Below, in pieces: positions 13,056 through 38,119 of a stretch of DNA of 64,000 bases. Below the pieces are notes generated by a model, which saw only the letters and a program-made list of their open reading frames with translations, searched no databases and was not told the DNA's origin. Within the stretch, counting starts at the first letter, position 1, and every line of letters starts with the position of its first letter. Source of the DNA: an uncultured Flavobacteriales bacterium. Lineage in GTDB: Bacteria > Bacteroidota > Bacteroidia > Flavobacteriales_G > Salibacteraceae. The translations under genes and the position numbers were made by a program. The stretch is from positions 1 to 64,000 of the forward strand of contig CAJXZP010000014.1 of the NCBI GenBank assembly GCA_913062955.1, given 5' to 3'.

Positions 13056-13060
13056 AGCCG

Positions 13061-13600
13061 ATGAAAGGAATCGTATTTACAGAGTTTTTGGAGTTAGTAG
13101 AAACCAAATTTGGTTTGGCTATAGTGGACCGAATAATAGAAGAATGTGATTTAGAGTCGCAAGGGGTGTATACTTCGGTAGGTACCTATAGCCATAAAGA
13201 AATGTTCGCTATGTTGAAAAAACTTTCGGAATTAGAAAGTATTCCAGTACAACAATTATTAGAAATGTTTGGCGAGTATTTCTTTACGACTTTAAGTTCA
13301 TCCTATCCCCAATTTATGGCACAACCCGATATGTTTTCCTTCTTAAAAACAATCGATAGTTATATACATCCGGAAGTGTTAAAGCTAAATCCACAGGCTG
13401 AATTACCTTCATTTCAAGCAGAAATGAAAGGAGATCATGAAATGTATTTAATGTATCAATCGACTCGGAAAATGGCTGATTTTGCGGTAGGATTGATTAA
13501 AGGTGCGGCTCAATATTATAATGAAAATGCGATTATTAAAAAAGAAGAAGAATTTGAGAATGGGCAAATTGTAATGATTAGTATTAAAACGGAGGCGTAA
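13061..13600 (+). CDS. hnoX: H-NOX (haem nitric oxide/oxygen-binding) sensor
   Basis: This stand-alone H-NOX domain of 179 aa begins with the family-typical MKGIVFTEFLELVE. The proximal haem ligand is His 103 (YIHPEVLKLNP), and the haem-propionate motif Y-x-S-x-R is Y132-S134-R136 (YQSTR). The position matching the distal O2-stabilising tyrosine of clostridial-type H-NOX is Phe 141. This predicts an NO-selective sensor rather than an O2 binder (inference from family knowledge). The gene starts 5 nt after the response regulator and ends 2 nt before the kinase, so the three are surely one operon. In known systems NO-bound H-NOX modulates the autophosphorylation of its partner kinase. Confidence 0.95.
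   Translation: MKGIVFTEFLELVETKFGLAIVDRIIEECDLESQGVYTSVGTYSHKEMFAMLKKLSELESIPVQQLLEMFGEYFFTTLSSSYPQFMAQPDMFSFLKTIDSYIHPEVLKLNPQAELPSFQAEMKGDHEMYLMYQSTRKMADFAVGLIKGAAQYYNENAIIKKEEEFENGQIVMISIKTEA
13591..13595 (+). promoter_or_regulatory. GGAGG ribosome-binding site fixing a TTG start
   Basis: GGAGG lies inside the last codons of the H-NOX gene, 7 nt before the TTG at 13603. Shine-Dalgarno sites are uncommon in Bacteroidota. Together with the 2-nt gap and the lack of an upstream ATG, it supports TTG as the start of the kinase gene. Confidence 0.6.
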
Positions 13601-13602
13601 AT

Positions 13603-16981: not shown

Positions 16982-17704
16982 ATGAAATTTTCAAGATTCA
17001 TACTTCTAGTGTTAAACGTTTTGGCTTTGGCTTCCTGCTCTTACCAAAACATCTTTACTACCGATCGGTCGGATAGTTTGGAGGAATTGATGCGAGTAGA
17101 TACGATTTACCAACATGTAATAGGTATTGATGACAAACTAAGCGTAAGTGTTTGGAATCATCAAAATATGAGTATTGGGTCTGTATTTGGAATTTATAAC
17201 TCAAACGAGGTATATGGAAAGTGGGTAATGGTGGATGTTAATGGCGATGCGATGTTACCCAGAATTGGAAAGGTAACTCTAGCAGGTTTAACCGTTGTTC
17301 AAGCAGCAGATACGCTTTCGAAACGCTATAGTTCCATGTTGGTAGACCCAATAATTGTCGTGAAGATTCAAAATAGAGAGGTGAGCATTTTAGGTGAAGT
17401 TCGAACTCCAGGTAAATATATTCTCGAAAAAGAGACCAATACCTTAACCGAAATTATTGCGAGCGCTCAAGGTTTTGAGTTTTATGCCGACAAAAAAAAT
17501 GTACTTTTATTAAGAAATAACAAGAGTTATATCATTGACCTCACCGTATTGGAAAACAATAATTACCAAATTATTGTTCAAAATGGGGATGTAATAAGTG
17601 TACCCAGTAGAGGTGGTAAAATGGTCGATAAAAGAGCGCCTACCTTAATTGCTTTTGCGAGTGCGATCACTGCCATTGCCGTGCTCATCTCATTAATTCC
17701 ATAA
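16982..17704 (+). CDS. Wza-like polysaccharide export lipoprotein
   Basis: The 240-aa product has a lipoprotein signal (Cys 19, LALASC). A Poly_export domain spans about 45-130 (IGIDDKLSVSVWNHQNMS, WVMVDVNGDAMLPRIGKVTLAGLT), and one SLBB domain about 135-190 (VSILGEVRTPGKYILEKETNTLTEIIASA). It ends in a hydrophobic helix at 221-240 (LIAFASAITAIAVLISLI). It is shorter than E. coli Wza, as usual in Bacteroidota. It forms the outer-membrane exit channel for polysaccharide, partnering the Wzc-like protein encoded 10 nt downstream. Confidence 0.9.
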   Translation: MKFSRFILLVLNVLALASCSYQNIFTTDRSDSLEELMRVDTIYQHVIGIDDKLSVSVWNHQNMSIGSVFGIYNSNEVYGKWVMVDVNGDAMLPRIGKVTLAGLTVVQAADTLSKRYSSMLVDPIIVVKIQNREVSILGEVRTPGKYILEKETNTLTEIIASAQGFEFYADKKNVLLLRNNKSYIIDLTVLENNNYQIIVQNGDVISVPSRGGKMVDKRAPTLIAFASAITAIAVLISLIP

Positions 17705-17714
17705 ACTAAGAACT

Positions 17715-19955
17715 GTGCAAAGATTATTAATTTATATAAAACCAATTTTAATAAGGTTACCGTTAATCGGATTGATCTTTGTTATGTCTTTGGTCATAGC
17801 TCACCAAATTATCAAGTATACCCCTACGCAATATTTAACCATCGCTAAAATAAAATTAGATACCCGTAAATATGGCGTGTCAAACGATCTATTATACAAG
17901 GATTTTGATGTTTTTACTTCCGAGAACAAAATTGAAACCGAAGCGGAAATATTGGGCTCCCATTTATTAATAAAAAGAGCCTTGAAAAAAGTTCAATTTA
18001 ATAACCAAATCAAAAGAATTGGGAAAATAAAAACAACTACCTTATATAACAATAGTCCCATTTCCTTGAAATCCGAAATGAATAATAGGTTGTTATTTGA
18101 CGCGCCTTTTAAAGTGTTAATAGCAGATAGTGTCATCTATTTAAGCAATAATAATTTAAAAACTCCGGTGACCTTAGAAGGCAAATTAAATGAGTGGATG
18201 AACCTGCAAGGCAACAAAATTATGTTGGTAATCAATGACTCCATCATCGCCACGCAACAACTTCACCTGAATGGAAAATATGGGTTTACCTTCTTCTCCG
18301 AAGAGGGGTTGATCAATCATGTGAGAGCGCATTTACAAGTAACCGCTGTAGATAAAGAAATGACCATACTACGGGTCGTTTTTAAGGATGAAATGCCACA
18401 AAAAGCAGCCGATTTTAATAACGCCTTATGTGAAGCTTATATTGAAGATTATGTGCAAATGAAGACCTACGCAGCAAACAAAACCGTTGATTTTATTGAT
18501 TTAAAATTAGATGAGGTAGGAGAAGATTTGGAAAAAGCGGAATTCGCTTTAGAACAATATAAATTGAAAAATAGTGTGGTGAATGTGCGCCAGGAAACGG
18601 AAACTGGAATTAGACAAGTGGCAGATCTTCAGATACAATTGGTAAATACCATGATGGAGGAAAAGGCCATCTTAGAATTGGAACAGTATTTAGATAGTGG
18701 AAATTATTTTACCGAGACAGCCATTCAGGTGGGTTTCGGAGATTTGCTGTTAACAGAGCTCATTAAAAAATTGAAAATATTAAGAGATGAAAAGCATGAT
18801 TTAACCATCCGATTTACGGAAGGTAGTGATGAGGTGAAAGCGGTGAATGCTAAGATTGAAGAAATTATATTTTACATCAATGAAGCCATCCGGTCCAATA
18901 GAAATAACATTAAAATCAAAAGAGGGCAATTAGAAACAGATTTAGAAATTTTTGCGCACCAATTTGACAATATTCCTATACTAGAACGTAGGTTACAAAT
19001 CTTACAAAGAGAGTTTAATCTGCAAGAATCGGTATTTAATTTTTTATCTCAAAAAAGAATAGAGGCATTTATTGCATCCACTTCTTCTACCTCTTTTCAC
19101 CGAATAATTCAACAAGCTTATGTACCCAGCGCACCCTCTGCTCCCAATAAAACATTGATCACTTTTGTGTGTGGGCTTTTAGGGTTAATTACCGGAATTA
19201 CGATCGTGTTTTTATTGAGAATAACGGAAGCAAAAGTGTTGGATAGGGAAGACATTGAAAAGAATTCACTTTTACCATTATCGGGGTATATACATAAAGA
19301 AGCCAATAAATCAAGTAAAGATTACCAAACTATTATTCAGTCTTTAATACTAAAAGAGCTTTTAAAAGCCAAACAATTGATCACTGTAACTTCCACCGAG
19401 GCAAATGAAGGTAAAACCGAAGTAGCCCACAAAATATTAAATGCATTACTAGACAAAGGGTATTCTGCTTGTATAGTGAATCACGATGCTTCGGAAGTAC
19501 CAACCGATTTGAAACAAGAATTGAATTTGTTATCCTTGAAAATCAATGAATTGACGAGTGGTGCTGTCATAACCACCCGAAACGACCAGAAGGAATTAGG
19601 ACGAAACGCATCCTTGTTGACCAATAAACTGGAGGAACTCAAGGACGTATATGATTTTGTGGTCATAAATGCAGCTCCTATTGCCAAACATATTGAACCG
19701 GTGGTAATGATGAAAAATGCGGGTATTAGTTTTTTTGTATTTAAAGCGAATGTGAGTCAAATTGAATGGGTACAAAACATTAATCTTCTTGCGGAGGAAT
19801 ATACATTGAAAAATGTGCATTTGTTACTTACGGATGTAGATCAATACATAAACTACTCGGGTAATTATGTAAACCAAAAGGTGAATGTGATTGGAATTAT
19901 GAAACAGTGGAAGGCTCAGTTGGTCGGTTTAGTAAAATTAAGATCCAAAAAATGA
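17715..19955 (+). CDS. Wzc-like chain-length/co-polymerase protein with decayed tyrosine-kinase domain
   Basis: The 746-aa protein starts at GTG (no ATG is available near the first TM). It has TM1 at about 10-32, a Wzz/GNVR periplasmic region with long coiled coils, a Pro-rich segment (PSAPSAPNKTL), and TM2 at about 480-500. The cytosolic domain from 550 has the BY-kinase fold, but its motifs are altered: Walker A reads STEANEGKT without the usual Pro-Gly, the A' motif LVDxDLR is VNHDAS, and Walker B DxxxIDTPP is DFVVINAAP. The tail has only scattered tyrosines (QYINYSGNYVNQ). It likely controls chain length structurally rather than by phosphorylation. It overlaps the flippase gene by 4 nt (ATGA). 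Confidence 0.88.
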   Translation: MQRLLIYIKPILIRLPLIGLIFVMSLVIAHQIIKYTPTQYLTIAKIKLDTRKYGVSNDLLYKDFDVFTSENKIETEAEILGSHLLIKRALKKVQFNNQIKRIGKIKTTTLYNNSPISLKSEMNNRLLFDAPFKVLIADSVIYLSNNNLKTPVTLEGKLNEWMNLQGNKIMLVINDSIIATQQLHLNGKYGFTFFSEEGLINHVRAHLQVTAVDKEMTILRVVFKDEMPQKAADFNNALCEAYIEDYVQMKTYAANKTVDFIDLKLDEVGEDLEKAEFALEQYKLKNSVVNVRQETETGIRQVADLQIQLVNTMMEEKAILELEQYLDSGNYFTETAIQVGFGDLLLTELIKKLKILRDEKHDLTIRFTEGSDEVKAVNAKIEEIIFYINEAIRSNRNNIKIKRGQLETDLEIFAHQFDNIPILERRLQILQREFNLQESVFNFLSQKRIEAFIASTSSTSFHRIIQQAYVPSAPSAPNKTLITFVCGLLGLITGITIVFLLRITEAKVLDREDIEKNSLLPLSGYIHKEANKSSKDYQTIIQSLILKELLKAKQLITVTSTEANEGKTEVAHKILNALLDKGYSACIVNHDASEVPTDLKQELNLLSLKINELTSGAVITTRNDQKELGRNASLLTNKLEELKDVYDFVVINAAPIAKHIEPVVMMKNAGISFFVFKANVSQIEWVQNINLLAEEYTLKNVHLLLTDVDQYINYSGNYVNQKVNVIGIMKQWKAQLVGLVKLRSKK

Positions 19956-21208
19956 GACACAAAATCGTACATAAAATGAAAAATAATGCCGCTAAATTGA
20001 TCGTATTATCCGATCAAGCCTTGGTGAGTGGTATTAACTTTTTTGTGACCTTATTACTTGCGCGTTTTTTAGGATTAGACGATTTTGGTTTGTTTGCTTT
20101 TGGGTGGATGGTCGTGTTATTCTTTAGTAGTCTCCAATTGGCATTTATCATTTCTCCCTTGTTTACTTTATTTCCAAAACAGGAATTTCCTTCTCAATAT
20201 TTAAAATCAGTTCACAGCATCCAACTGCTATACACCGTCCTTACTTTTTTTTCGGCCATGGGTGGTTTGAAAGTGGTGATGTTATTAAAACCTGAATGGT
20301 ATGTAATTGGAACAGAATGGAGCTTACCCCTTGTCGCAGCTTTATTTGGGTTACAAGATTATTACCGAAGGGTAAACATTACTCGAAATCAACCCGTACA
20401 AACTTTGATTTCAGATGTATTAGCTTATGGTTTTCAGCCCATCGCAGTGTTGGCTTTATATTATTTCGATTGGCTGAACATTCATAATGCCTATGTAGCG
20501 ATAGCCGTATTGTTCGGGCTTTCGTCTGGGTATAATTTTCTTAGAAATTCATTGGAAATGAAGGTTGCCCCAATCGTTTTAACCGTAAAAGAAAACTGGG
20601 GGTTTTCAAAATATTTAGTGGGTACCGCATTACTGCAATGGGTATCGGGGAACTTCTTCATTATTGCAGCAGGAGCATTATTAACTCCTTTGGCCATTGG
20701 GGTTATTCGTATCGCCCAAAATGTAGTGGGTATCTTAAACGTGTTATTCTCCGCCCTAGAAAACATTGTTCCTTTAAAGGCCGCCCAATTATTATCCAGC
20801 TCCGGCTCGCGCCCAACTATGAATTACTTCAAAACCACCTTGATTTATGGAGGAGCATTAACGGTATCTGTTTTGATTGCTATCGCATTTGGAAGAAACT
20901 TAATTATCGAGTGGTTTTATGGAGTTCAGTACTTAGCTTATTCAAATGTGTTTTTAGGATTTACATTGATCTATGTATTTGTGTTTTTAAATACCATTTT
21001 AGGATTTGTAATTAGGACGTTTGAAATGAATCGCATTTTTTTAATCAGCTACATTTTCACTTCTGTATTTAGTGTGCTTGCAGCTAAGCCAATCATTTCT
21101 CATTGGGGAGTGTACGGAGTAATAATAGGGTTATTGGGAACACAACTATTAAATATAGGAGTGTATTCCTATTCGTTAAAATCAAAAATTATTGGATTAT
21201 GGAAATAG
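19952..21208 (+). CDS. Wzx-type lipid-linked polysaccharide flippase (MATE-like)
   Basis: The ATG at 19952 overlaps the stop of the previous gene as ATGA, the sign of translational coupling; an earlier GTG at 19907 is rejected. The 418-aa product has about 12 TM helices and the N-terminal pattern of the polysaccharide biosynthesis/MATE superfamily (SDQALVSGINFFVTLLLARFLGLDDFGLFAFGWMV). It moves undecaprenyl-linked repeat units across the inner membrane in Wzx/Wzy-dependent polysaccharide synthesis. It overlaps the following glycosyltransferase by 10 nt. Confidence 0.87.
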   Translation: MRHKIVHKMKNNAAKLIVLSDQALVSGINFFVTLLLARFLGLDDFGLFAFGWMVVLFFSSLQLAFIISPLFTLFPKQEFPSQYLKSVHSIQLLYTVLTFFSAMGGLKVVMLLKPEWYVIGTEWSLPLVAALFGLQDYYRRVNITRNQPVQTLISDVLAYGFQPIAVLALYYFDWLNIHNAYVAIAVLFGLSSGYNFLRNSLEMKVAPIVLTVKENWGFSKYLVGTALLQWVSGNFFIIAAGALLTPLAIGVIRIAQNVVGILNVLFSALENIVPLKAAQLLSSSGSRPTMNYFKTTLIYGGALTVSVLIAIAFGRNLIIEWFYGVQYLAYSNVFLGFTLIYVFVFLNTILGFVIRTFEMNRIFLISYIFTSVFSVLAAKPIISHWGVYGVIIGLLGTQLLNIGVYSYSLKSKIIGLWK

Positions 21209-22311
21209 TACATGTTGTTTTAGGAAAAGTGAATACCCACAAAATGAATGGGGTGAACAAAGTGGTAGACAATTTGGCAAAAAACCAAATAGAGCTTGGT
21301 CATCAAGTAACTATTTGGGGAATTACCAAAAATCCGGATAATGATTATTCGGAAAGAATTTATGATACAAAATTGTTCTTAAATAGTACCAAATTTCTAG
21401 TGCCAAAAGGAATGATCAAGGCCATCAAAACAGTAGCTCCAGGAACCGTTTTTCATGTTCATGGGGGCTTTATTCCGCAATTTTTTTTAATCACCATCTT
21501 TCTCCGGATTTATGGTTTTTCGTATGTGTTTACCTCTCATGGAAGTTACAATTCAGTTGCCATGGAACGGAGCTATTGGAAGAAAATGTTATATGTATGG
21601 TTCTTTGATAGCGCTATTGTAAGTCATGCCAAATCCATGCATTTTATTGGAGAAAGTGAAATTGAAGGGGCTAAAGAATTATTCGATTTTTCCAATTATG
21701 AGTTGATCCCAAACGGCCAAAGTTTTGATGATCATTTATTACCCCCAAAACGAAATTTAGATCGTTTTACGGTATTTGGTTTTTGTGGTCGCTTAGACAT
21801 CAAAACCAAAGGGTTGGATTTATTATTCAAAGGGTTTGCCCAATATGTTCAAGAAACCCAAAACGATCAAGTGGAGTTGTGGATCATTGGGGATGGGGAA
21901 GAACGAGTTGTTCTTGAAAAAATAGCCATAAAATTAGGGATTGCTGATCAAGTCCGATTTTGGGGAAGTGTTTTTGGAGAGCGTAAAAGAGAGTTAATAC
22001 GCAAATTTGACTTTATGGTTTTAACTTCTCGCAACGAAGGTTTACCCGGAGTCGTACTCGAAGCTGCGGCTTTGGGTGTTCCCAGTATTGTTAGTCAAGA
22101 AACCAATATGGCCGCCTATTTACTCAAGTACCACGCAGGATTAGCGCTGGCTGAAAATGATCCGAAAAACATTCAGGCTTCCTTAAAATTTGCCACTCAA
22201 TCAAGATTAAATAAAAGAATTCAATCCTTTAAACTAGGGGCAATGAATATGGTTGCCAAAGAATTTGATTGGAAATCTATTGCCTCTCGGGTATCTCAAT
22301 TGTATGTATAA
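21199..22311 (+). CDS. GT4-family glycosyltransferase
   Basis: ATG 21199 (MEIVHVVLGKVNTHKMNGVNKVV) gives 370 aa; the frame upstream is inside the flippase gene. The fold is GT-B. The N-terminal domain has the Gly-rich acceptor loop near NGVNKVV. The C-terminal GT4 domain begins at FTVFGFCGRLDIKTKGLDLLFKGF, and its E-x7-E motif is EGLPGVVLEAAALG. It is a retaining transferase adding a sugar to the lipid-linked repeat unit; donor and acceptor are unknown. It lies between wzx- and wzy-like genes and overlaps both. Confidence 0.88.
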   Translation: MEIVHVVLGKVNTHKMNGVNKVVDNLAKNQIELGHQVTIWGITKNPDNDYSERIYDTKLFLNSTKFLVPKGMIKAIKTVAPGTVFHVHGGFIPQFFLITIFLRIYGFSYVFTSHGSYNSVAMERSYWKKMLYVWFFDSAIVSHAKSMHFIGESEIEGAKELFDFSNYELIPNGQSFDDHLLPPKRNLDRFTVFGFCGRLDIKTKGLDLLFKGFAQYVQETQNDQVELWIIGDGEERVVLEKIAIKLGIADQVRFWGSVFGERKRELIRKFDFMVLTSRNEGLPGVVLEAAALGVPSIVSQETNMAAYLLKYHAGLALAENDPKNIQASLKFATQSRLNKRIQSFKLGAMNMVAKEFDWKSIASRVSQLYV

Positions 22312-23611
22312 TGAAAAAATTCCATATTGGGTAAGAAATATTTCTACCGTACTGATTGTTATTTTAAGTATCAAAATAGCCGGATATTTTTGTATTGTAG
22401 AAGATCGTACCATTAATCAAATATTTAAAGTGATTTCTAGAATGGGTATGACAGGGACCATTCTTTTTCTCTACTTAAAAACTATAAAGTTAGGTTGTTT
22501 AACCACCTTCAAATATGAAAACGTTTTAGCTACTAGTTTATACCTCGGGTATTTGTTTTTAGGGTTGGCCTCTTTTGGATGGTCTTCCGATGTCAAGTAT
22601 TCCATCTTACAATGGTTAATGACATTTGAAAGCTTGGTTTTCGTGATTTTATTTATGCGTGTAATTAGTTTGATTAACTACTACTTTCCTGTGTACACCG
22701 TAAGTTTAATTCATGTATTTACCGTGGCTGTTTTTCCAATTATGATGATTTTTATTTTGGGTTCCATCGTACAACCGGATTTGTTTTTTAGAGGAATGCG
22801 AGGTGGGGCGGAACAACGTTTAGGGGGCTATTACATGAACCCAAATGAATTAGGAATGTTATCGAGCATTGGGGCCGCCATGACTTATTTGTATGTGCAA
22901 AAAGCGTCAAAAAAAGTAGGGGCTGTACTCATGTTACTGGCTTCATTAATTGTTCTGGGTTTAACGGCTTCTCGGTCTTCCGCTATTGGTTTTTTATTAA
23001 TTATGGGGATTTTGATCTTACAATCGGAAAACAAAAAATTGAAAATTAGCATGTTTGTTGGCGTGGCATTAGCGATTCCTGCCATTTTGAAATTTATGAT
23101 TTTTAAAGATGGAGGGGGCGTGGAAGAAGTATTGAGTATGACTGGAAGAATTCCATTTTGGACCGCTTTATTAAAGGAGGGGATTATTCGTGAACCCTTT
23201 TTTGGATTTGGGTTTATGCGTATTAATTACACCGATTATTTTGAGAGTTTAAATACCTACGCAGCTAGAATGACCCACAATACATTCATGCAAGTGTTAA
23301 TGAACCTTGGGTTTGTGGGTTTCTTTGTGGCTTTTTGGCAATTAGTAATGACCATTAGTAATTATTTTAAGGAAAGAAAAAAAAGTAGGTATGGTAAATT
23401 TTTCGTGGCCATGTTTATTCCAATTTTCATTAATTCCTTAACGGAGTTCGGGATTTTTGGGGAAACTAATTTTGGAATATTATTCTACCAATTCTTGATT
23501 TTATTGTTTGTATTTCAAGTCAGAACAAACCGTTCAAAAAGTGAAGATTACAAATTACGCTTATTTCAAAAACGATGGCGCTTAAATAGCAAAAATCAAA
23601 CTGCCAATTAA
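22304..23611 (+). CDS. Wzy/O-antigen-ligase-family polysaccharide polymerase
   Basis: ATG 22304 overlaps the end of the preceding gene by 8 nt and gives 435 aa. About 11 TM helices are visible, with a large periplasmic loop. The conserved region GGYYMNPNELGMLSSIGAA followed by LTASRSSAIGFLL is the O-antigen ligase/Wzy signature. A second loop carries GFGFMRINYTDYFESLNTYAARMTHNTFMQVLMNLG with the typical His-Asn. It polymerises repeat units on the periplasmic side. It is the last gene of the tightly packed export block; a 357-nt gap follows. Confidence 0.87.
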   Translation: MYNEKIPYWVRNISTVLIVILSIKIAGYFCIVEDRTINQIFKVISRMGMTGTILFLYLKTIKLGCLTTFKYENVLATSLYLGYLFLGLASFGWSSDVKYSILQWLMTFESLVFVILFMRVISLINYYFPVYTVSLIHVFTVAVFPIMMIFILGSIVQPDLFFRGMRGGAEQRLGGYYMNPNELGMLSSIGAAMTYLYVQKASKKVGAVLMLLASLIVLGLTASRSSAIGFLLIMGILILQSENKKLKISMFVGVALAIPAILKFMIFKDGGGVEEVLSMTGRIPFWTALLKEGIIREPFFGFGFMRINYTDYFESLNTYAARMTHNTFMQVLMNLGFVGFFVAFWQLVMTISNYFKERKKSRYGKFFVAMFIPIFINSLTEFGIFGETNFGILFYQFLILLFVFQVRTNRSKSEDYKLRLFQKRWRLNSKNQTAN

Positions 23612-29900: not shown

Positions 29901-30496
29901 GAAATTATTTTGCCCAGAACATCCGAGTAAGGAATGAAATACCTTCCAATTTGGATGTGAGCTCGATTCAAAAAGTGGTAGCTAGTCATGCGTATGAATG
30001 GAAACAAACCGGTAATCATCTCGAGTTTATTTTTAAAAATATCTGTTTACCCGATAGCAGTGAATCTCAATATGAAAGTAATGGATTTATTGAGTTCTCA
30101 ATATACCCTGAAAATGGAATACTAAGCGGTTCGGTGATTAAAAATCAAGTCGAGATTGTTTTCGATTATGAAGACCCTTTGATGACCAATACGACTCGAA
30201 ATACCATAAAATTTAGCGGAGCATCTGTTGAAAATAAAGTCCTTATTCAGCCCAATCCCGTACAAAACCAAACTACGGTATTGTTAGAGCTGTCAAAAGA
30301 TCGCTATACCAATTATCAAGAAATAGAAAAACTGGAAATATACGATATGGTCGGTAATCTAGTCCGTACTTGGAATTTTGGAGGCGAAGTACAACGGGCA
30401 GTGTTAAACATTGAAACCTGGACACCTGGTTGTTATATCGTGAAGGTGTACAATACAAATGGGCAATATTTTCCAGGCCGATTAATCAAAGAATAA
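23969..30496 (+). CDS. Giant T9SS-secreted surface protein with FG-GAP, UnbV and SdrD_B-like domains
   Basis: This 2175-aa protein has a signal peptide (MKVTYIILFLVPLFLQGLTQT). Residues of about 30-1270 are repeated beta-sandwich, DUF11-like domains rich in Thr, Asn and Ser with paired cysteines. Seven FG-GAP/VCBS repeats follow at about 1275-1605, each with a DxDNDGxxD calcium loop (DYDNDGFED, DMDNDGDLD and others). Next come an ASPIC/UnbV domain at about 1620-1712 (KSAIGARVRVKA, FGLADASTVDSVIIQWPSG), an SdrD_B-like domain at about 1720-1810 (VVYHDENSNCSQDANEKGIPG), further DUF11-like domains, and a T9SS type A sorting domain from 2087 (IQPNPVQNQTTVLLEL). It sits inside the polysaccharide locus behind a sigma-54 promoter match. 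A role in binding or organising the polysaccharide is inferred. Confidence 0.88.
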   Translation: MKVTYIILFLVPLFLQGLTQTNPEISTIVIPEITVCDDAEVFQVTIKNVSLSSLNAPLIQITLPTGIKYVLGSVSESTNSNVSQSNTSDLGAPVFSANNLNAGDSIKFEIEIEAGIPTIVYQQQGNVFRNLVNLTYTGGSENHTSNAYNVLYAALSILSVSPTSQTAVTGDSVTRSITIINAGNGKLSSFSLSDVRNLAGVDLILTNIGTLNGAQNEITLSGSDFSAIGNNDSYFNTDEQITLVQTLVASGCSENTVTSTLNTSWGCDSETRESSNSYAHVSIELKNPSLGISSTDDLSACFSTEQSGQQIELTNNGQGYATNVIVDIYKSSGGAYDQDLFSAIDENSMTYQRGSNGTPVSITPVSYSTRNDGAYSCLGSSPIGRVVISLPFDLAPGETVYIEWNSFHCCVSECNNEDLMGWKYKVDYEDMCGNNNYSSTKTGEGSTELNMTLFTETPIDINAGETLPFVYTISSHDNNLPLGTNAQYEVIMEIPLGLDWAGGANDFTWTSSPSSWTPSSVTFNSNTREITGIFLVPEPFNIQKSEITVNLTGNCSASTSGLKTITLDINYVPDTTCSSCKVDMVCNKTTTTNLHCPILNCEGFHFLSFETTRTNFGSPDNNTNGLADNSGTIDMTKVKVKRVMVGDTLQTTYKVLVSTGSNMSQFYNFFVEANIDYGQNLTFLNGEIIVYDDVTDLNYSCTNFQTTVVNGSGSARKFQYTMLPNYDCLGLPDTPGSGTQFFFTDGDSITFTVNYEVTGNIGGSIEEVTINNDLFSSAFSAPWGADAAQLSTDKWGCDDYDGRFTLIGYYFDNSWTSNYTVKTCSRVIQQNFWFSIGDCCDNYDGGNLFPYEYRNWAHIKEVRVSYPTDYEVVNVYFRQKRTKTTNSSATETIWSISPYHNSGGNMYFNLEQHYIEFGGTLNYSDDGFSGTVYLELAPTCDVPINSYEDINWEFQFAKNDIIGGGVTSFLTESPDRIRYRPTTLTLASSNPIVDGLGRTVNWNLQVKNTTSYSSAANSWVHFKSPSGDVELLYVIDDASGDTLSLTSDYFELGTVSTNSTKSLSIIAKYSGCAPDQLVVYSGYECSGYPSDFAHFYCTYTTFGLEVEPKNAEPQVTITGTTIGDDCSDIIEVTIEVASVRFAHVDSIVVEIDAIGNSMSFISGSGQLKFPTSGSFTSVSDPQFAGGISTYNIMDLDADLLENALVGVMDVTKNRFQLKFQMQLDNSFESGHYVQLAIKSKEICGNDLPQINLAYDPSVQFNVNTIAGLSSDVSDSWGIAWGDYDNDGFEDVYVAEYAENQGSYLYHNNGDGSFTKETSGVIVTDGGSSIAGTWGDYNNDGFLDLFVANNTGALNALYKNTGSGNFTRITTGDIANYGGYCHGASWVDYDNDGYLDLFVTDYMTTKFNVLYKNNGDETFTVITNSALVQEATRSIGATWADYDNDGDMDVFVPATSGLSNSLFRNNGAGEFEKMTSIGIPVDNANSVGCSWGDMDNDGDLDLFVTNTSGQNNFFFLNDGDGTFTEVTSGLLVSDGGHSSSSNWVDFDNDGDLDLYVCNDQSDANAMYINDGNGNFLKPENPLSADLGNSYSQGWSDFDNDGDLDLLVGNHSNESNVFFENSRASCNSWFCLKLIGVNSNKSAIGARVRVKATINGQPTWQLKEISAQTGGGAGSQNSLKALFGLADASTVDSVIIQWPSGYRQVLTNQSINSCTDLTEGDGMQVCGVVYHDENSNCSQDANEKGIPGTQITIQPGDRGVTTDENGEYEVFLEAGSYTITQTLPSGWTTNCAVNGHSITVSNGQVYCGNNFGNTSSCPDPNLSVMIGTTALRKGFQNEYVVLYANTGAYDAVNVELSITFDDAIIPLSATIPWTSEVQNGNTTTYTWLIDSMKAVTTYDLKIIDSVSVLSNIDDELTVSASITDFGDDCDASDNTFTETNSVVGAVDPNDLLVFPLGDGTDGFIDKTQVLRYKIRFQNVGNYFAQNIRVRNEIPSNLDVSSIQKVVASHAYEWKQTGNHLEFIFKNICLPDSSESQYESNGFIEFSIYPENGILSGSVIKNQVEIVFDYEDPLMTNTTRNTIKFSGASVENKVLIQPNPVQNQTTVLLELSKDRYTNYQEIEKLEIYDMVGNLVRTWNFGGEVQRAVLNIETWTPGCYIVKVYNTNGQYFPGRLIKE

Positions 30497-30649: not shown

Positions 30650-33304
30650 ATGAACAATTCGATCTATATCAGTGACCTGTACCTACTGCTGAAGTTATAC
30701 GCTCCTTCGGTTTATCAATTGGATGTGTGGGATCCAAACGAAAATATTCAACTAGATGCCCCCTGGAAGTTTCAAACAAAAAAAACAAGTGACTTTAAGG
30801 TATTGGTATTTCTACCCAGTATAATAGAAGTCTATTCTGGAGAACCCATGTCTGAATACGATTTAGTGCTAGATTTTTCAAAATCGGTATCGGATTTTGG
30901 TCCCTACCAATTCAATATAAACTACCTAAACAATCCCAATGGGAAAATGCGCTGGTTGTATACGGATAAAAATAGAAAAGCCACTTTTTTAAAATTTTAC
31001 AATGCGGGTACTCGAATTGCGAAATTGAAGGCTTTTGTTATTCAAGTTGGTTTTGCTTTAGGATTACAAAACTGGATTCGTTCCGGATGTATACGAATCC
31101 ATTCAAAAAAAGAATTAAAGTTAACACAATTAATACAAGAGGTTCCACACACAGATCACTCCCTTTTTCTAGGGTCGGAAGGAGATAATCGAACCGTGTT
31201 GGTAGAAGTCAATTCTCAAAATGAATCTACCCATTTTTTTAAAATTCCTTTAACCAAGGAAAGCATTCGTTCGGTAGCCAATGAAAAGCGGTTCTTGCAA
31301 ATGTTGCAGGACCGCTCCTTCCAGTTCATCCGTGTTCCTCCAACGGTTTCTAGCCGTTTTGGAGATGTACTCATTACAAAAGGAATTGAACTTGCCCAGG
31401 CCAAACGTTCGGTAGTTTTTACAGAGTTGCACTATTCGGCTATTCAAGAAATGACCCTGAAAACGAAACAGTTTTCGCGTCTCCAAGATTCTGCTTTTTG
31501 GCTCCAGGTGGAGGATAACTTATCCCAGTTGAAAAAAAATGAAACCTTCTCGAATGCGATCGGATTAGCGCATCAACTTAAATCAGACTTGAGTAACAAC
31601 CGAGGGATCTACACCGGTATATCGCATGGCGATTTTACCCCTTGGAATATGTATGTGACCCCAAAGAAATTGCAAGTATACGATTGGGAAATGGCAGAGA
31701 ATGAAATGCCATTATTATTTGATTTATTCCACTTTCATTTTCAAACAGGTGTTTTGATCCACCGACACTCTTTTAAGGAAATAAAGGCGACTATTTTAAA
31801 AGCCTGTAAACATCCCAAAATGGAAAGCCTATTATTAGTTTACGATATAGACCTTGCCTTGTACATCCAATTATATGTTTTGAAATCTGCTACAAAATAC
31901 TTTATCGAATTTCAAAATCAACCGGTATTGAATCCACAAAATAAATGGTTGTTGGAAGCCTTAACAGATGCACTCACAGACAGCTGCATGTTTAAAAATG
32001 GAGAGGCGCATCGTCCGGTTTTTATTACCGATTTAAATGCAGAAATGGGGAAATTTTCACATGTATACTTAAAGTTATTGGAGCCTGAAATTACGCAGCT
32101 TCCCATAAACTCCGATTTAGATATTCTAGTGGATGCACAGGCGGTCAATCAATTGGTCGGTTTTTGTGAAAATCACTCCTATGTGGAGAAAGTGAAAGTC
32201 TATACCAAGTCATTTATGAGTACAGTGGATATTTACTTTAAGGATCAAGGGTTTTTAGTAGTCGATTTCATTCATTCTTTTAAAAGAAAACATGTTCAAT
32301 TTATGGATCCTAAAACGGTTTTAAACTCATCGCACCCAAATATATATGGGTATAGGGTTCCAGATCCGGTATTGGATTTTGAATATGTCTATTTGTTTTA
32401 CCAATTAAACGGAGCTTCTGTTCCTGAAAAATATCAAAAGTATTATACCGAGCTTCAAGCGGATGAGGTGAATGAAATCCCTTCACATATTCAAATTAAA
32501 TATGAATTATTGCAGTATTCGGAAGACCAATTAATGGCGTTTCATCCGGATATTCAAAATCAATTATTACATAAACTGGCTTCGTTTAGTTTGAATTCTG
32601 GAGTTTGTTTAGTCAAAAATGTATTCCAGTATTTCAGCGATACGGTGTACGATTTGGTAAACCGACAAGGATTGGTTATTACCTTTAGTGGGGTAGATGG
32701 TGCCGGTAAAACAACCCTTATTGGGAAGGTAAAAAGAAAACTAGAAGATAAGTACCGTAAAGAAGTGGTTCTATTACGTCATCGGCCAGGTATTTTTCCC
32801 ATCCTAAGTGCCCTTAAACATGGGAAAAAAGAAGCCGAAAAAATTGCTTCCGTGACCTTACCTAGAAAGGGAAATAATAAAAATATGTTATCCAGTTTAG
32901 CGCGTTTTGCCTATTACTTCAGCGATTACATATTTGGCCAAATATATGTGTATTTCAAATATACCTTACGTGGTAAAGTAGTGCTGTATGATCGGTATTA
33001 TTTTGATTTCATTAATGATTCCAAACGATCCAATATCCTGTTAAATAGAGGTTTCATTAAGTCCTTGTACCGATTTGTATTCAAGCCAGACCTAAACTTC
33101 TTTTTATATGCCGATGCACCGACCATTTTGAACCGTAAAAAAGAAATGGTAGAAGAGGAAATTGTCCGAATATCCAGTCTGTATCAAAACTTGTTTTCTC
33201 AAATGAGTACGGAATATGAATCGAGTGTGTATACCAGTATTGAAAATAAAAACTTAGAGGATACCTTGAATCAAGTGTTGCTTTCGTATCAAAAAGTAGC
33301 CTAA
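30650..33304 (+). CDS. Fusion of APH-like kinase, nucleotidyltransferase-like and thymidylate-kinase-like P-loop domains
   Basis: Three units can be seen in 884 aa. At about 185-450 lies an aminoglycoside/choline-kinase-type fold with catalytic HGDFTPWN (His 326, Asp 328) and metal-binding DWE (Asp 345). At about 460-600 a segment with NSDLDILVD (Ser 488, Asp 489, Asp 491) looks like the D-x-D of pol-beta-type nucleotidyltransferases. At about 674-884 a P-loop kinase of thymidylate-kinase shape carries GVDGAGKTT (681-689) and VVLYDRYYFDF. The first 180 residues are unassigned. There is no signal peptide. It lies between the surface-protein gene and a double glycosyltransferase, so it may phosphorylate or activate a repeat-unit building block (inference). 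Confidence 0.7.
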   Translation: MNNSIYISDLYLLLKLYAPSVYQLDVWDPNENIQLDAPWKFQTKKTSDFKVLVFLPSIIEVYSGEPMSEYDLVLDFSKSVSDFGPYQFNINYLNNPNGKMRWLYTDKNRKATFLKFYNAGTRIAKLKAFVIQVGFALGLQNWIRSGCIRIHSKKELKLTQLIQEVPHTDHSLFLGSEGDNRTVLVEVNSQNESTHFFKIPLTKESIRSVANEKRFLQMLQDRSFQFIRVPPTVSSRFGDVLITKGIELAQAKRSVVFTELHYSAIQEMTLKTKQFSRLQDSAFWLQVEDNLSQLKKNETFSNAIGLAHQLKSDLSNNRGIYTGISHGDFTPWNMYVTPKKLQVYDWEMAENEMPLLFDLFHFHFQTGVLIHRHSFKEIKATILKACKHPKMESLLLVYDIDLALYIQLYVLKSATKYFIEFQNQPVLNPQNKWLLEALTDALTDSCMFKNGEAHRPVFITDLNAEMGKFSHVYLKLLEPEITQLPINSDLDILVDAQAVNQLVGFCENHSYVEKVKVYTKSFMSTVDIYFKDQGFLVVDFIHSFKRKHVQFMDPKTVLNSSHPNIYGYRVPDPVLDFEYVYLFYQLNGASVPEKYQKYYTELQADEVNEIPSHIQIKYELLQYSEDQLMAFHPDIQNQLLHKLASFSLNSGVCLVKNVFQYFSDTVYDLVNRQGLVITFSGVDGAGKTTLIGKVKRKLEDKYRKEVVLLRHRPGIFPILSALKHGKKEAEKIASVTLPRKGNNKNMLSSLARFAYYFSDYIFGQIYVYFKYTLRGKVVLYDRYYFDFINDSKRSNILLNRGFIKSLYRFVFKPDLNFFLYADAPTILNRKKEMVEEEIVRISSLYQNLFSQMSTEYESSVYTSIENKNLEDTLNQVLLSYQKVA

Positions 33305-33323: not shown

Positions 33324-35690
33324 ATGAAAAAGACTATACTTATTTCAGCTTACGCAGTAAATCCATTTAAAGGGTCCGAAGATGGAACCGGATGGAATAT
33401 TTCTAAAGAGTTAGCCAAAGAATACCAAACGGTAATCGTTACCCGTAAAAATAACCGTCCGGAAATTGAAAGATACCTGTCTGAAAATTCGGATCCAGTA
33501 TATAAAAATATGACCTTTAAATACCACGATTTACCAGAATGGGCGATGCGGTTAAAAAAGAATTTGGGCGAGCGGGGATATGTGTTGTATTTCTATTTCT
33601 GGCAAATGTTTTTACCGTTTTTCATCCGTAAAACCAAGGTCAAATTTGACTTGAGTTATGCATTGAATTTTCATAGCGATAGCGTACCTCATTTTTTGTG
33701 GGTATTAGGTAAACCTGTCATTTGGGGCCCTATCGGGCATCATCCCAAAACACCTTCGGCTTATTTATTGAACCATTCCTTAAAAGTTCAATTAACAGAT
33801 GTCTTGTATAATTCTGTAAAATGGGCCATGCGGAATTTGGATCCGTTTTTTTACATCGCAAAAAGAAAAGCCATAAAAATCATCGGAATTAATTCATCGG
33901 TTCAAAAAGTCATGCGTATCCCATCTTCAAAAATAGTAGTTATCCCTGCCGTGGGTAACGATCCAGTTATGCCTTGGATAAAGGAAGAAACTAAATTTAA
34001 CATTCTTTCCGTTGGGAGGTTTACCGCCATGAAGGGTTTTGATATTGCCATATTGGCATTCGCTCGTTTTTATAAGTCCCTTCCCAAGACGGATCGAGCC
34101 AATGTGAAACTTACCTTAGTGGGTAAAGGAGAGGGATTAGTGGGGTTGAACAAGCTTATTGTTGAGCAGCGAATAACAGATGCCGTGGATATTATTCCAT
34201 GGGTAGCCAAAGCAGAAATGGAACAGATTTATAGCAATGCCACCGCCTTTATTTTTCCCTCTCATGAAGGTGCTGGTATGGTAGTGCCCGAAGCTATGGG
34301 ATATGGGTTACCTGTTATTTGCTTCGATAATGTGGGGCCCGGTGAACTCGTGGGTGATGCGGGAGTTAAAATAGCATATACTACTTACAATGAAAGTGTG
34401 AATGGCTTTGCTCGCCAATTACATAAATTATACAAAGACCCCGCTTGGACTTTTGAGTTAGGTAAGAAAGCTTTAAATCGCTTTTATGAGGTCTTTACAT
34501 GGAGCCAAAAAGGGAAAGCTATCCGTAGTATTATTCAGGAAGTATTGCAAGAACCAAAGACCATTGCCGTATTTCACCCAAGTGCGGAATTATACGGAGC
34601 AGATCGAATTCTAGTAAATGCCTTGAACGCTATTCCTAAGGAGGTAAACAAACGAGTGTATTTATTCAGAGAAGGACCGTTGGTGGATGTTTTGAAATCT
34701 CGAGTAGCCAATATGGAGGTCATCATCCAACCGGATATGCCTGTGATTTATCGTAAGATTTTCAACCCTATTGGGATCCTGGTTTTTTTAAAAAACTGGA
34801 TGCAATTCTTATTCTTTATGCGTAGCGAAAACAAAAAATTCCATTTCACCTCGGCCTATGTAAATACTCTGTCGGTTAGTTTCTTGTTACCCTTATTGGC
34901 CGGTCTTGGAATTAAACGGTATGTACATGTCCATGAAATTATTGATCATCCTAAAATGATAGGAAAAGTAACGGCTTGGTTAAGTTATAAATTTGCCAAT
35001 AAGATAGTATGTGTATCTAATGCGGTATTGGTTGGAATGAAACGATATGTGCCAAATTTCGATAATAAAATAGAAGTAATTCACAACGGAATTGATCCGG
35101 TGGAGGTGGTTCAAAATGGATCGAAAAGAGGATTGAATTTTTACTTGTTTGGTCGTATAAAACCGGAAAAAGGACACTGGTTTTTAATTGAAGCTCTAGC
35201 CCGTATCCCCATAGCAAAATTGGCAAATTCGCAATTTATTTTAATGGGAGGAGCGGTTCCTGGGCAGGAACAAATGCTGACCGATTTATACGATAAAATT
35301 GAGGCGGCTGGATTAGAAAAAAATGTACACATCAAAGGCTTCTCTCCCAGTATCGCAACAGCCATGAGTCAAGCCGATGTGTGTTTGATTCCTTCCATTA
35401 TGAAAGATCCCTTTCCTACCACAGTTTTGGAAGCCATGTCGGCATCAAAAACCGTTATTTCCACCAATAATGGGGGAGCCAAAGAAGCGGTAGTCAACAA
35501 TGAAACTGGGTTTTTAATTGCCCCTCATAATAGCCAACAATTTGCAAAGGTATTGACCCATGTAATTGATCAAAAATCGAAATTACCTTTCTGGGGAAAG
35601 AATGCGAAAAATCGATACGAACAGTTATTTACCATTAAAAACTTTAGTCGGAATTGGGTGCGTTTTAATTTGACGAATCAATTGATATAA
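33324..35690 (+). CDS. Double GT4 glycosyltransferase (two fused GT-B enzymes)
   Basis: The 788-aa protein holds two full GT4-type units. Module 1 is at about 1-410 (GSEDGTGWNISKELAKEY, FNILSVGRFTAMKGFDIAILAF, E-x7-E in EGAGMVVPEAMGYGLP). Module 2 is at about 412-788 (AELYGADRILVNALNAIP, LNFYLFGRIKPEKGHWFLIEAL, PFPTTVLEAMSASKTV). In module 2 the first Glu of E-x7-E is replaced by Asp-Pro-Phe, while the second is kept. Two successive sugar transfers by one polypeptide are likely. It starts 20 nt after the kinase fusion gene, so the two are co-transcribed. Confidence 0.88.
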   Translation: MKKTILISAYAVNPFKGSEDGTGWNISKELAKEYQTVIVTRKNNRPEIERYLSENSDPVYKNMTFKYHDLPEWAMRLKKNLGERGYVLYFYFWQMFLPFFIRKTKVKFDLSYALNFHSDSVPHFLWVLGKPVIWGPIGHHPKTPSAYLLNHSLKVQLTDVLYNSVKWAMRNLDPFFYIAKRKAIKIIGINSSVQKVMRIPSSKIVVIPAVGNDPVMPWIKEETKFNILSVGRFTAMKGFDIAILAFARFYKSLPKTDRANVKLTLVGKGEGLVGLNKLIVEQRITDAVDIIPWVAKAEMEQIYSNATAFIFPSHEGAGMVVPEAMGYGLPVICFDNVGPGELVGDAGVKIAYTTYNESVNGFARQLHKLYKDPAWTFELGKKALNRFYEVFTWSQKGKAIRSIIQEVLQEPKTIAVFHPSAELYGADRILVNALNAIPKEVNKRVYLFREGPLVDVLKSRVANMEVIIQPDMPVIYRKIFNPIGILVFLKNWMQFLFFMRSENKKFHFTSAYVNTLSVSFLLPLLAGLGIKRYVHVHEIIDHPKMIGKVTAWLSYKFANKIVCVSNAVLVGMKRYVPNFDNKIEVIHNGIDPVEVVQNGSKRGLNFYLFGRIKPEKGHWFLIEALARIPIAKLANSQFILMGGAVPGQEQMLTDLYDKIEAAGLEKNVHIKGFSPSIATAMSQADVCLIPSIMKDPFPTTVLEAMSASKTVISTNNGGAKEAVVNNETGFLIAPHNSQQFAKVLTHVIDQKSKLPFWGKNAKNRYEQLFTIKNFSRNWVRFNLTNQLI

Positions 35691-35825: not shown

Positions 35826-37031
35826 ATGAAAAAAGTAGCCATAATAGGAACAGTAGGGATTCCTTCCAGATACGGAGGGTTTGAAACGCTGGCTCATCAT
35901 TTAACAAAACAGTTAAAGGACGAATTTGAATTTACGGTGTATTGTAGTGCCAAAGCATATAGCAAAGAAGAACGAATTTCCTCTTTTCATGGCGCTCGTT
36001 TAGTTTATTTACCATTCAAAGCGAACGGATTTCAAAGTGTTATTTACGATATCATTTCTGTTTTTCACGCGCTTTTTTATGCCGATACTTTAGTGATATT
36101 AGGGGTTTCGGGTGCGTTGATTCTACCCTTGGTAAAATGGTTTACAAACAAGAAAATTATTGTGAATATTGATGGAATGGAATGGCGAAGAAACAAATGG
36201 AATCGTTTGACCAAATGGTTTTTAAAGTTATCCGAACGTATTGCCGTAAAGTATTCACATGCTGAAATTACGGATAACCAAGCCATAAAAAATTATACCT
36301 ATACCGAATACGAATCGGTAAGTCATCTGATAGAATACGGAGGGGATCATGCGGTACGGAAATCAGCAAACCCTATTTATTTGGCTAAGTATGATTTTAT
36401 GTACGCGCCCTATGCCTTTAAAGTAGCCCGAATAGAACCGGAGAATAACGTTCATGTGATTCTAAATGCCTTTGCTAAAACCACGAAAGTATTGGTGGTA
36501 ATCGGAAATTGGAATAACAGTGTATATGGTGAAAATTTAAAAAAATGGTACCGCACTTTTCGCAATTTGCATCTATTAGATCCTATTTATGATCAAGATG
36601 AGTTGGATGCCATACGCCAAGGATGCCAGGTTTACGTGCATGGCCATAGCGCAGGCGGAACAAACCCATCTTTGGTAGAAGCCATGACCTTGGGTTTACC
36701 TGTTTTGGCTTTTGATATAAGTTATAACCGAGCGACCACCGAAAATCGAGCATTCTATTTTGTGGATGAAGAAGATTTGGCCAACCGAGTGCTTCAATTA
36801 AAATATTTGGAGTTACGCAATAACGGTAAACGTATGCTCGCGATTGCTAAAAGAAGATATACTTGGAGTGTGATTGCCAACAAGTATAAAAACCTCATTT
36901 ACACATTAGATTATAAAATCGTAAAACCACGGGTGTTCCCGAAAATCACATTAGTGCACGAGCCGCATCCCACTCCCAATGGTTTAGTACAATTATATTC
37001 GATGCAACACTTACAAAAAAAAGAATCATGA
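35826..37031 (+). CDS. DUF1972/GT4 glycosyltransferase (rhamnosyltransferase type)
   Basis: The 401-aa protein starts with KVAIIGTVGIPSRYGGFETLAHHL, the DUF1972 N-terminal domain typical of capsule rhamnosyltransferases of the Cps2T/WchF kind. The C-terminal GT4 domain has GHSAGGTNPSLVEAMTLGLPVLAFD. Known members add a deoxy-hexose to an early lipid-linked intermediate; the sugar here is not known. Its stop overlaps the start of the WecA-like gene as ATGA, consistent with early steps being made together. Confidence 0.85.
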   Translation: MKKVAIIGTVGIPSRYGGFETLAHHLTKQLKDEFEFTVYCSAKAYSKEERISSFHGARLVYLPFKANGFQSVIYDIISVFHALFYADTLVILGVSGALILPLVKWFTNKKIIVNIDGMEWRRNKWNRLTKWFLKLSERIAVKYSHAEITDNQAIKNYTYTEYESVSHLIEYGGDHAVRKSANPIYLAKYDFMYAPYAFKVARIEPENNVHVILNAFAKTTKVLVVIGNWNNSVYGENLKKWYRTFRNLHLLDPIYDQDELDAIRQGCQVYVHGHSAGGTNPSLVEAMTLGLPVLAFDISYNRATTENRAFYFVDEEDLANRVLQLKYLELRNNGKRMLAIAKRRYTWSVIANKYKNLIYTLDYKIVKPRVFPKITLVHEPHPTPNGLVQLYSMQHLQKKES

Positions 37032-38119
37032 ATCTCACATACACAAGCATGGCAGTAGTCGTGATCTCATTTATGATCGCACTTATCAGTATCCCGTATA
37101 TTATTAAATGGGCACACCGATCGGGTAAATTAACACAACGGAATCACCGTTCTTCACACAAATTACCTACCCCTTCATTGGGTGGGGTAGGGATTTTGTT
37201 GGGGATGGCAGTGCTCATTCCGTTTCTCGATATGACACTCCCTATGGCTGCCACTTGTTTCGGTGTCTTGCTGCTTTTTGCAACTGGATTGATTGATGAT
37301 CTAACCGAAATCAAAGCCAAAACCAAATTATTGGTGCAAGTAGCTTGTGCACTATTAATCTACTTTTCAGGATTGCGGATCGAGAACTTACATGGTATTT
37401 TAGGGGTCTATGAAATACCTGGATTGGTGAGTTTTACACTCACTGTTTTGTTTATTGTGGGGGTCACCAATGCCTTTAATTTAATGGATGGAATTAATGG
37501 GTTGGCGGGTATCATGGCCATCATTAATAGTGCGTTGTTTGGGGTGATTTTTTACCTGAACGGTCAAAGCAATTTTGCTTTATTAGCCTTTGCTTTGTGT
37601 GGAGGAGTTCTTGGATTCCTACGCTTCAATATTCCAAAGGCAAAAATATTCATGGGCGATAGTGGCTCTTTATTTATAGGATTATTGATGGGCGTGTTTG
37701 TGATTCAAACATTTCAAACCAATACCTATAATGAACTTAGCATTTCGGTGGCCCTGGTACCCATGTTTATTCCCATTTTTGATACCATTCGATTATTTGC
37801 TACACGGGTAATGGATAGAAAAAGTCCGATGGAAGCCGATAAAAATCATTTGCACCATTTGGTAATAAAGGCGACTTCCAACCATACGCATGCCACTTTT
37901 TTGATTGTCACCTTACATGTGTTGCTATTGGGGTTTGTGATGATGGTATCGTATTTTGGAGGCGAATTATTATTAAATACGCTAATAACGATTTTGTTAG
38001 GAGGAGTTGTCGCTTTCCTTGGTCTATTTGTTTTTATGGAAGTGTATATGAAATTAAAACGTTTACGAGCGCATTTAAAACTACTTTTGGGAAACAACCG
38101 CTTACTTGAAAAACTATAA
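37028..38119 (+). CDS. WecA/MraY-family undecaprenyl-phosphate sugar-1-phosphate transferase
   Basis: The 363-aa membrane protein has about 11 TM helices. The family's cytosolic motifs are present: GVGILLGM, LIDDLTEIKAKTKLLVQ, NAFNLMDGINGLAG, FMGDSGSLFIG and the His-rich DKNHLHHLV. It transfers a HexNAc-1-phosphate from a UDP-sugar to undecaprenyl phosphate, the first step of repeat-unit assembly. It is the only initiating transferase seen in the locus. It overlaps the upstream DUF1972 gene by 4 nt, and the tail-anchored receiver gene begins 2 nt downstream. Confidence 0.9.
   Translation: MNLTYTSMAVVVISFMIALISIPYIIKWAHRSGKLTQRNHRSSHKLPTPSLGGVGILLGMAVLIPFLDMTLPMAATCFGVLLLFATGLIDDLTEIKAKTKLLVQVACALLIYFSGLRIENLHGILGVYEIPGLVSFTLTVLFIVGVTNAFNLMDGINGLAGIMAIINSALFGVIFYLNGQSNFALLAFALCGGVLGFLRFNIPKAKIFMGDSGSLFIGLLMGVFVIQTFQTNTYNELSISVALVPMFIPIFDTIRLFATRVMDRKSPMEADKNHLHHLVIKATSNHTHATFLIVTLHVLLLGFVMMVSYFGGELLLNTLITILLGGVVAFLGLFVFMEVYMKLKRLRAHLKLLLGNNRLLEKL

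Follow-up and report, generated by a model that had tools for sequence, protein, structure and literature searches.

An APH-type kinase, a nucleotidyltransferase and a thymidylate-kinase-fold P-loop kinase fused in one protein of a Bacteroidota polysaccharide locus

The polysaccharide locus and its fusion gene

The window, the whole 64,000-nucleotide stretch of uncultured Flavobacteriales DNA analysed here, carries a polysaccharide locus in which genes for a Wza-type export protein, a Wzc-like chain-length determinant, a flippase, a GT4 glycosyltransferase, a Wzy-type polymerase, an FG-GAP protein, the fusion protein, a double GT4 glycosyltransferase, a DUF1972/Cps2T-like glycosyltransferase and a WecA-like initiating transferase follow one another in this order (Table 1). 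Flippase, polymerase, export protein, co-polymerase, initiating transferase and glycosyltransferases are thus found together, as expected of a Wzx/Wzy locus, and the polysaccharide setting that the original prediction proposed for the fusion is borne out both by this gene content and by its conservation in relatives. The flippase, which has no Pfam match of its own, is 40% identical to the syntenic protein of locus L016, itself a match to Polysacc_synt_3 at 6.4e-12. The kinase part of the Wzc-type protein is weak, scoring 34 bits with TIGR01007 against a cut-off of 108 and matching AAA_31 only at E 0.049. The double GT4 glycosyltransferase of the window corresponds to separate genes in many homologous loci. 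Inside the locus, positions 23969-30496 encode an FG-GAP/UnbV protein of 2175 aa that carries a secretion-system C-terminal sorting domain; at the same place elsewhere, L015/L028 encodes a protein 72% identical to it and L029 one of similar size.

The open reading frame of the fusion, which matches the original claim exactly, starts with ATG and encodes 884 residues. Four motifs share this one frame—HGDFTPWN (residues 326-333), DWE (345-347), NSDLDILVD (487-495) and GVDGAGKTT (681-689)—and their occurrence is not due to chance.

Table 1. Features of the polysaccharide locus and of the fusion protein, in window coordinates
Feature	Position	Strand	Basis
Wza-type polysaccharide export protein	16982..17704	+	Poly_export, SLBB_2
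Wzc-type chain-length determinant	17715..19955	+	GNVR
Wzx-type flippase	19907..21208, likely start near 19970	+	homology to L016 protein
GT4 glycosyltransferase	21103..22311	+	domain search
Wzy-type polymerase	22253..23611	+	Wzy_C
APH / nucleotidyltransferase / P-loop kinase fusion protein, 884 aa	30650..33304	+	ORF, Pfam, structure model
Variable N-terminal alpha/beta subdomain, residues 1-85	30650..30904	+	gaps in alignment, secondary structure
Conserved lead-in to kinase N-lobe, residues 86-165	30905..31144	+	alignment conservation
APH/choline-kinase-type kinase domain, residues 166-450 (about)	31145..31999	+	Pfam, fold search, residue counts
Pol-beta-fold nucleotidyltransferase domain, residues 451-610	32000..32479	+	carboxylate triad, structure model
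Thymidylate-kinase-fold P-loop kinase domain, residues 673-884	32666..33301	+	Pfam, fold search, motifs
Double GT4 glycosyltransferase	33324..35690	+	domain search
DUF1972 / Cps2T-like glycosyltransferase	35826..37031	+	NF046071 190.7 bits, under its 500-bit cut-off
WecA/MraY-type initiating phosphoglycosyltransferase	37028..38119	+	Glycos_transf_4 PF00953

Domains of the fusion protein

Sequence comparison and structure prediction confirm three domains in the fusion: an APH-type kinase, a Pol-beta-fold nucleotidyltransferase (NT) and a thymidylate-kinase-fold P-loop kinase. The original prediction had placed three nucleotide-using units in one chain, and in an alignment of 65 sequences each of them has conserved catalytic residues; the middle and last domains, on whose folding that claim depended, are both predicted confidently. 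The AlphaFold2 model built from the 65-sequence input has a mean pLDDT of 89.7 over the whole 884-aa chain and a full-chain pTM of 0.64, the placement of the domains relative to each other being less certain. NCBIfam and PDB sequence searches with the single 884-aa protein supported the thymidylate-kinase-like part only, and none of the named families searched spans the whole protein. No published description of the fusion or of its gene set was found in the literature searched, including that on the Flavobacterium wza/wzc locus and on roseobacter biofilm plasmids.

The first 180 residues, which had been left unassigned as a possible further domain, are instead variable up to residue 85 and conserved from there to residue 165, in a stretch that leads into the APH N-lobe. 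Residues 1-85 show mean gaps of 38% across the 65 sequences and are missing from many homologues, while residues 86-165 have the consensus NPDGSxRWxxP...FLxFYN. A fourth, N-terminal enzyme domain is not supported, since the former stretch is variable and the latter runs into the kinase lobe.

The kinase domain that follows matches Pfam APH (PF01636) at residues 174-359 with an E-value of 2.5e-7, its 31.1 bits lying above the cut-off of 23.2. The APH catalytic set is nearly invariant, K198 and H326 being conserved in 64/65 sequences and E212, D328, N333 and D345 in all 65. The APH-type kinases returned by a fold search were MTR kinase, macrolide phosphotransferase and the choline/ethanolamine kinase family, and for a profile built from fused and split APH sequences the closest solved sequence was the choline kinase 4r77 (E 1.6e-5), a weak match confined to the catalytic motif region; protein kinases were also listed for this profile, weakly. 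The domain thus shares with the APH/choline-kinase family its fold and a complete active site (HxDxxxxN...D, together with the N-lobe K and E), whereas the fusion to other domains and the additional N-terminal subdomains set it apart.

The middle domain of the window protein matches no Pfam family, and searching PDB sequences with an NT-domain profile gave zero matches. Modelled by itself, it reaches a pLDDT of 95.6, and the structures closest to it are for the most part Pol-beta-fold nucleotidyltransferases (TUT7, CutA, ANT(6), FKRP and 5uvd), no match reaching E 0.001. These fold neighbours, taken together with a carboxylate triad (D489, D491, D539) that is invariant in all 65 sequences, support membership of the Pol-beta superfamily; the evidence points to no particular family within it. 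FKRP, a glycan phosphodiester transferase, aligns weakly to the model, with a TM-score of about 0.37 and an E-value above 0.001. LicD membership was rejected, as the LicD profile PF04991 found nothing anywhere in the window's own genome; the resemblance to LicD/FKRP phosphodiester transferases is one of distant fold. With NTP_transf_5 (PF14907) and Pol-beta-superfamily nucleotidyltransferases the domain shares the fold, three carboxylates and the motif LK...SDLDxxV, but it scores under the NTP_transf_5 cut-off and lacks the usual G-S motif before DxD, where LKL or LKF stands instead, with a near-invariant K475. Weak matches to PF14907 occur in 8/65 members, the best at E 3.1e-4 and below the family cut-off, and none in the window protein. 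An hhalign comparison with PF14907 aligned the motif alone, an unreliable result given the few sequences, of which at least one (L158) is likely read from the wrong strand.

The C-terminal domain matches Pfam Thymidylate_kin (PF02223) at residues 680-856 (E 1.2e-8, 35.4 bits, above the cut-off of 27), and the fold search returned thymidylate kinases. It carries the motifs GVDGAGKTT, RHRP, DRYY and RKxE, with G-V-D-G-x-G-K of the P-loop and D781-R782 present in all 65 sequences, and is the most conserved part of the protein, 70 of its 212 columns being at least 90% identical; two short motifs of this domain seeded the scan for homologues, which biases those positions and none elsewhere. The fold, the P-loop GxDGxGKT and the DRY motif are shared with thymidylate kinase, whereas the invariant motifs RHRP, RFxYYxxDYxxGQ and RKxE are the domain's own and the REP motif is replaced. 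Also replaced in the alignment are the positions of the other thymine contacts, Phe66, Arg70 and Gln101 of S. aureus thymidylate kinase, which together with the REP motif read thymine. With 33.1 bits the domain falls short of the 83.25-bit cut-off of the dTMP kinase equivalog TIGR00041, and on this score and the replaced residues a housekeeping thymidylate kinase was rejected. PF02223 found no classical Tmk in the window's own genome (a 3.9-Mb draft in 131 contigs) or in several near-complete relatives, which may reflect search sensitivity. The fusion does not appear to stand in for a missing Tmk, because relatives without the fusion often lack Tmk as well. A clear classical thymidylate kinase is present in one relative, G003.

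Homologues and split forms

Among 60 whole genomes searched, comprising the window's own and its relatives, matches were found in 14: the window copy, 12 same-order relatives and one shorter protein of 486 aa. A scan of GTDB representative genomes gave 238 relatives, 80 of which were kept, with record titles naming Flavobacteriales, Cytophagales, Chitinophagales, Saprospiraceae, Bacteroidales, Hymenobacter, Pedobacter and Balneolia among others; of the fusion proteins whose source is named, the nearest belong to uncultured Flavobacteriales. All 64 aligned homologues have an identical domain order, and the neighbourhood survey proposed with the original prediction found the protein nearly always next to polysaccharide export genes. 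In the 80 homologous loci, whose gene labels were assigned by script from BLAST matches rather than by curated annotation (the flippase label by way of relatives matching Polysacc_synt_3), the fusion directly follows Wzy in 49 and precedes a hexapeptide acyltransferase in 57 and a GT4 glycosyltransferase in 18. By the same labels, the 55 loci flanked by 7 kb or more on each side contain GT4 in 54 cases and a DUF1972 protein in 50, with at least three of Wza, Wzc, Wzx and Wzy in 48 and none of these four in six.

Some individual homologues depart from this pattern. A 486-aa protein (L027:1055-2515) has the N-terminal part and the APH domain alone and lies beside DnaB-like and ApbE-like genes, no polysaccharide genes being recognised near it. 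In a 634-aa homologue (L131:8239-10143) most of the P-loop kinase domain is absent or decayed, the gene still adjoining GT4 genes, and in L032 the fusion is broken into two open reading frames of 734 and 134 aa, resembling a frameshift or an assembly error.

In other genomes the domains are divided between genes. L058 (Saprospiraceae) and L127 have two adjacent genes with the break between APH and NT, and in L128 and L129, loci from genomes farther off within the phylum, a protein made of NT and P-loop kinase adjoins a separate APH protein among polysaccharide genes. When 72,556 plasmids were searched with the L128 NT-kinase, matches were obtained in Leisingera, Agrobacterium, Legionella, Streptomyces and Hymenobacter, the last being the fusion itself. 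The Leisingera, Agrobacterium and Legionella plasmids encode an NT-kinase and a 'phosphotransferase' within one polysaccharide locus; the Streptomyces plasmid has the P-loop kinase and a phosphotransferase in one such locus, with no NT domain detected, and every non-Bacteroidota plasmid locus examined had a 'phosphotransferase' in the same polysaccharide locus. Used as separate queries against the same plasmids, the Agrobacterium NT-kinase and APH returned the identical six records, which represent few independent lineages because four of them are closely related Leisingera. What recurs across the split forms is the pair of APH and P-loop kinase, accompanied by NT everywhere but in Streptomyces. 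The split pairs of Agrobacterium, Leisingera, Legionella and L128/L129 resemble the fusion in domains, conserved residues (the NT triad included) and kind of locus, but consist of two genes in variable order, annotated on the plasmids merely as 'hypothetical protein' and 'phosphotransferase'. Split homologues thus stay among polysaccharide genes, where separation from them would have refuted the original prediction.

In the tree, which has long branches and an unsure deeper order, the L058/L127 split pair lies inside the fused Bacteroidota clade, consistent with a fission that came later. Outside this clade fall L128, L129 and the forms from Proteobacteria. Since the separate genes are co-located in the polysaccharide loci of other lineages, the fusion appears to join an existing enzyme set.

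Proposed function and competing explanations

The fusion protein probably adds a phosphate-containing group to a surface polysaccharide. More specifically, we tentatively favour, at a little below an even chance, a fused three-enzyme module for a Wzx/Wzy-dependent surface polysaccharide that would leave a phosphorus-containing group on the repeat unit; our inference is that each of the three domains has activity and that a phospho-decoration results. The protein would act in the cytoplasm, ahead of the flippase step, with the choline-kinase-like APH domain phosphorylating a hydroxyl of a small alcohol, a sugar or the lipid-linked repeat unit, and the thymidylate-kinase-fold domain carrying out another phosphoryl transfer from ATP, to a related substrate that is not thymidine. 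The Pol-beta-fold domain would form a phosphodiester with the product, the phosphorus-containing group thus coming to sit on the repeat unit. This pathway is favoured because the P-loop kinase is not of the dTMP type, the APH profile is nearest to choline kinase and the enzyme set recurs; of the locus genes covered by the searches, none was recognised as serving nucleotide-sugar synthesis, which makes a common metabolite or the lipid-linked glycan a plausible substrate. The conserved catalytic residues, the linkage to Wzx/Wzy genes, the cohesion of the split forms and the presence of FKRP among the NT fold neighbours also speak for it. Against it stand the weakness of the choline-kinase and FKRP resemblances, the missing G-S motif of the NT and the Streptomyces form, in which no NT is seen, so that NT may be dispensable. 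An APH-type kinase and a Pol-beta-fold enzyme also act on a surface glycan in LicA/LicC/LicD phosphocholine decoration and in ribitol-phosphate transfer by FKRP. The analogy extends to these two enzymes, whereas the window set includes a P-loop kinase in addition and shows no sequence match to LicD; nor was a LicC-type cytidylyltransferase, on which a phosphocholine-like route would depend, recognised in the locus. Somewhat unlikely in our estimation is the wider proposal that APH, Pol-beta NT and thymidylate-kinase-like enzymes form an undescribed pathway, found in polysaccharide loci of several phyla and fused into a single protein in Bacteroidota, which would install a phosphate or nucleotide-derived substituent new to bacterial polysaccharides.

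The main rival to a phosphorus-containing group on the repeat unit is the idea of the original prediction, an activated building block, which decoration of the lipid-linked repeat unit fits equally well: a soluble, nucleotide-activated donor, with APH making an X-phosphate, NT adding a nucleotide, the P-loop kinase recycling or modifying the nucleotide and a glycosyltransferase of the locus using the donor. APH kinases do feed nucleotidyltransferases in the pairs AmgK with MurU and NahK with GlmU, and the fusion is tightly linked to glycosyltransferases, but we know of no Pol-beta-fold enzyme that makes NDP-sugars, the known NDP-sugar synthetases having another nucleotidyltransferase fold, and ordinary dTMP recycling is doubtful because the P-loop kinase has other residues at the thymine contacts; we consider this route unlikely. 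It is quite improbable that one of the domains, NT being the likeliest, has no catalytic activity and serves only to bind substrate or tether the kinases: the G-S motif is absent and Streptomyces has both kinases with NT undetected, yet D489, D491 and D539 are invariant in the 65 sequences and retained in split forms.

Another idea is that of a regulator, in which APH and NT would modify an export-machine protein by phosphorylation or nucleotidylation, in place of the weak local Wzc tyrosine-kinase control. It draws on the protein-kinase-like APH fold, on the protein kinases weakly present among the APH profile matches and on the weak kinase part of the local Wzc. Three catalytic units, however, exceed the needs of control, the nearest APH structures work on small molecules and Agrobacterium has the same enzyme set beside an annotated tyrosine autokinase, which leaves a regulator very improbable. 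APH and NT folds are common among resistance and toxin proteins, but a defence, toxin-antitoxin or antibiotic-resistance protein present in the locus by chance is extremely unlikely given the close synteny with polysaccharide genes; a defence system was rejected on this synteny and on PADLOC results that amounted to weak P-loop matches, taken as noise.

The fusion gene is a regular component of a Bacteroidota polysaccharide locus from Flavobacterium and Chryseobacterium to Hymenobacter, and unites in one protein a nucleotidyltransferase and two kinases of different kinds, for which other phyla have separate genes in one locus. Because these separate enzymes recur together in other phyla, working out a single member would account for a step in the making of many surface polysaccharides and sharpen 'thymidylate kinase' and 'phosphotransferase' annotations.

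Ahead of the locus, positions 11712-15999 encode a sigma-54 response regulator, an H-NOX haem-NO-binding protein (HNOB, E 2.9e-45) and a hybrid histidine kinase. Relatives of the H-NOX protein occur in 7/80 homologous loci and of the sigma-54 regulator in 33/80, which suggests, from gene neighbourhood, that the polysaccharide may be under nitric-oxide control in some species.
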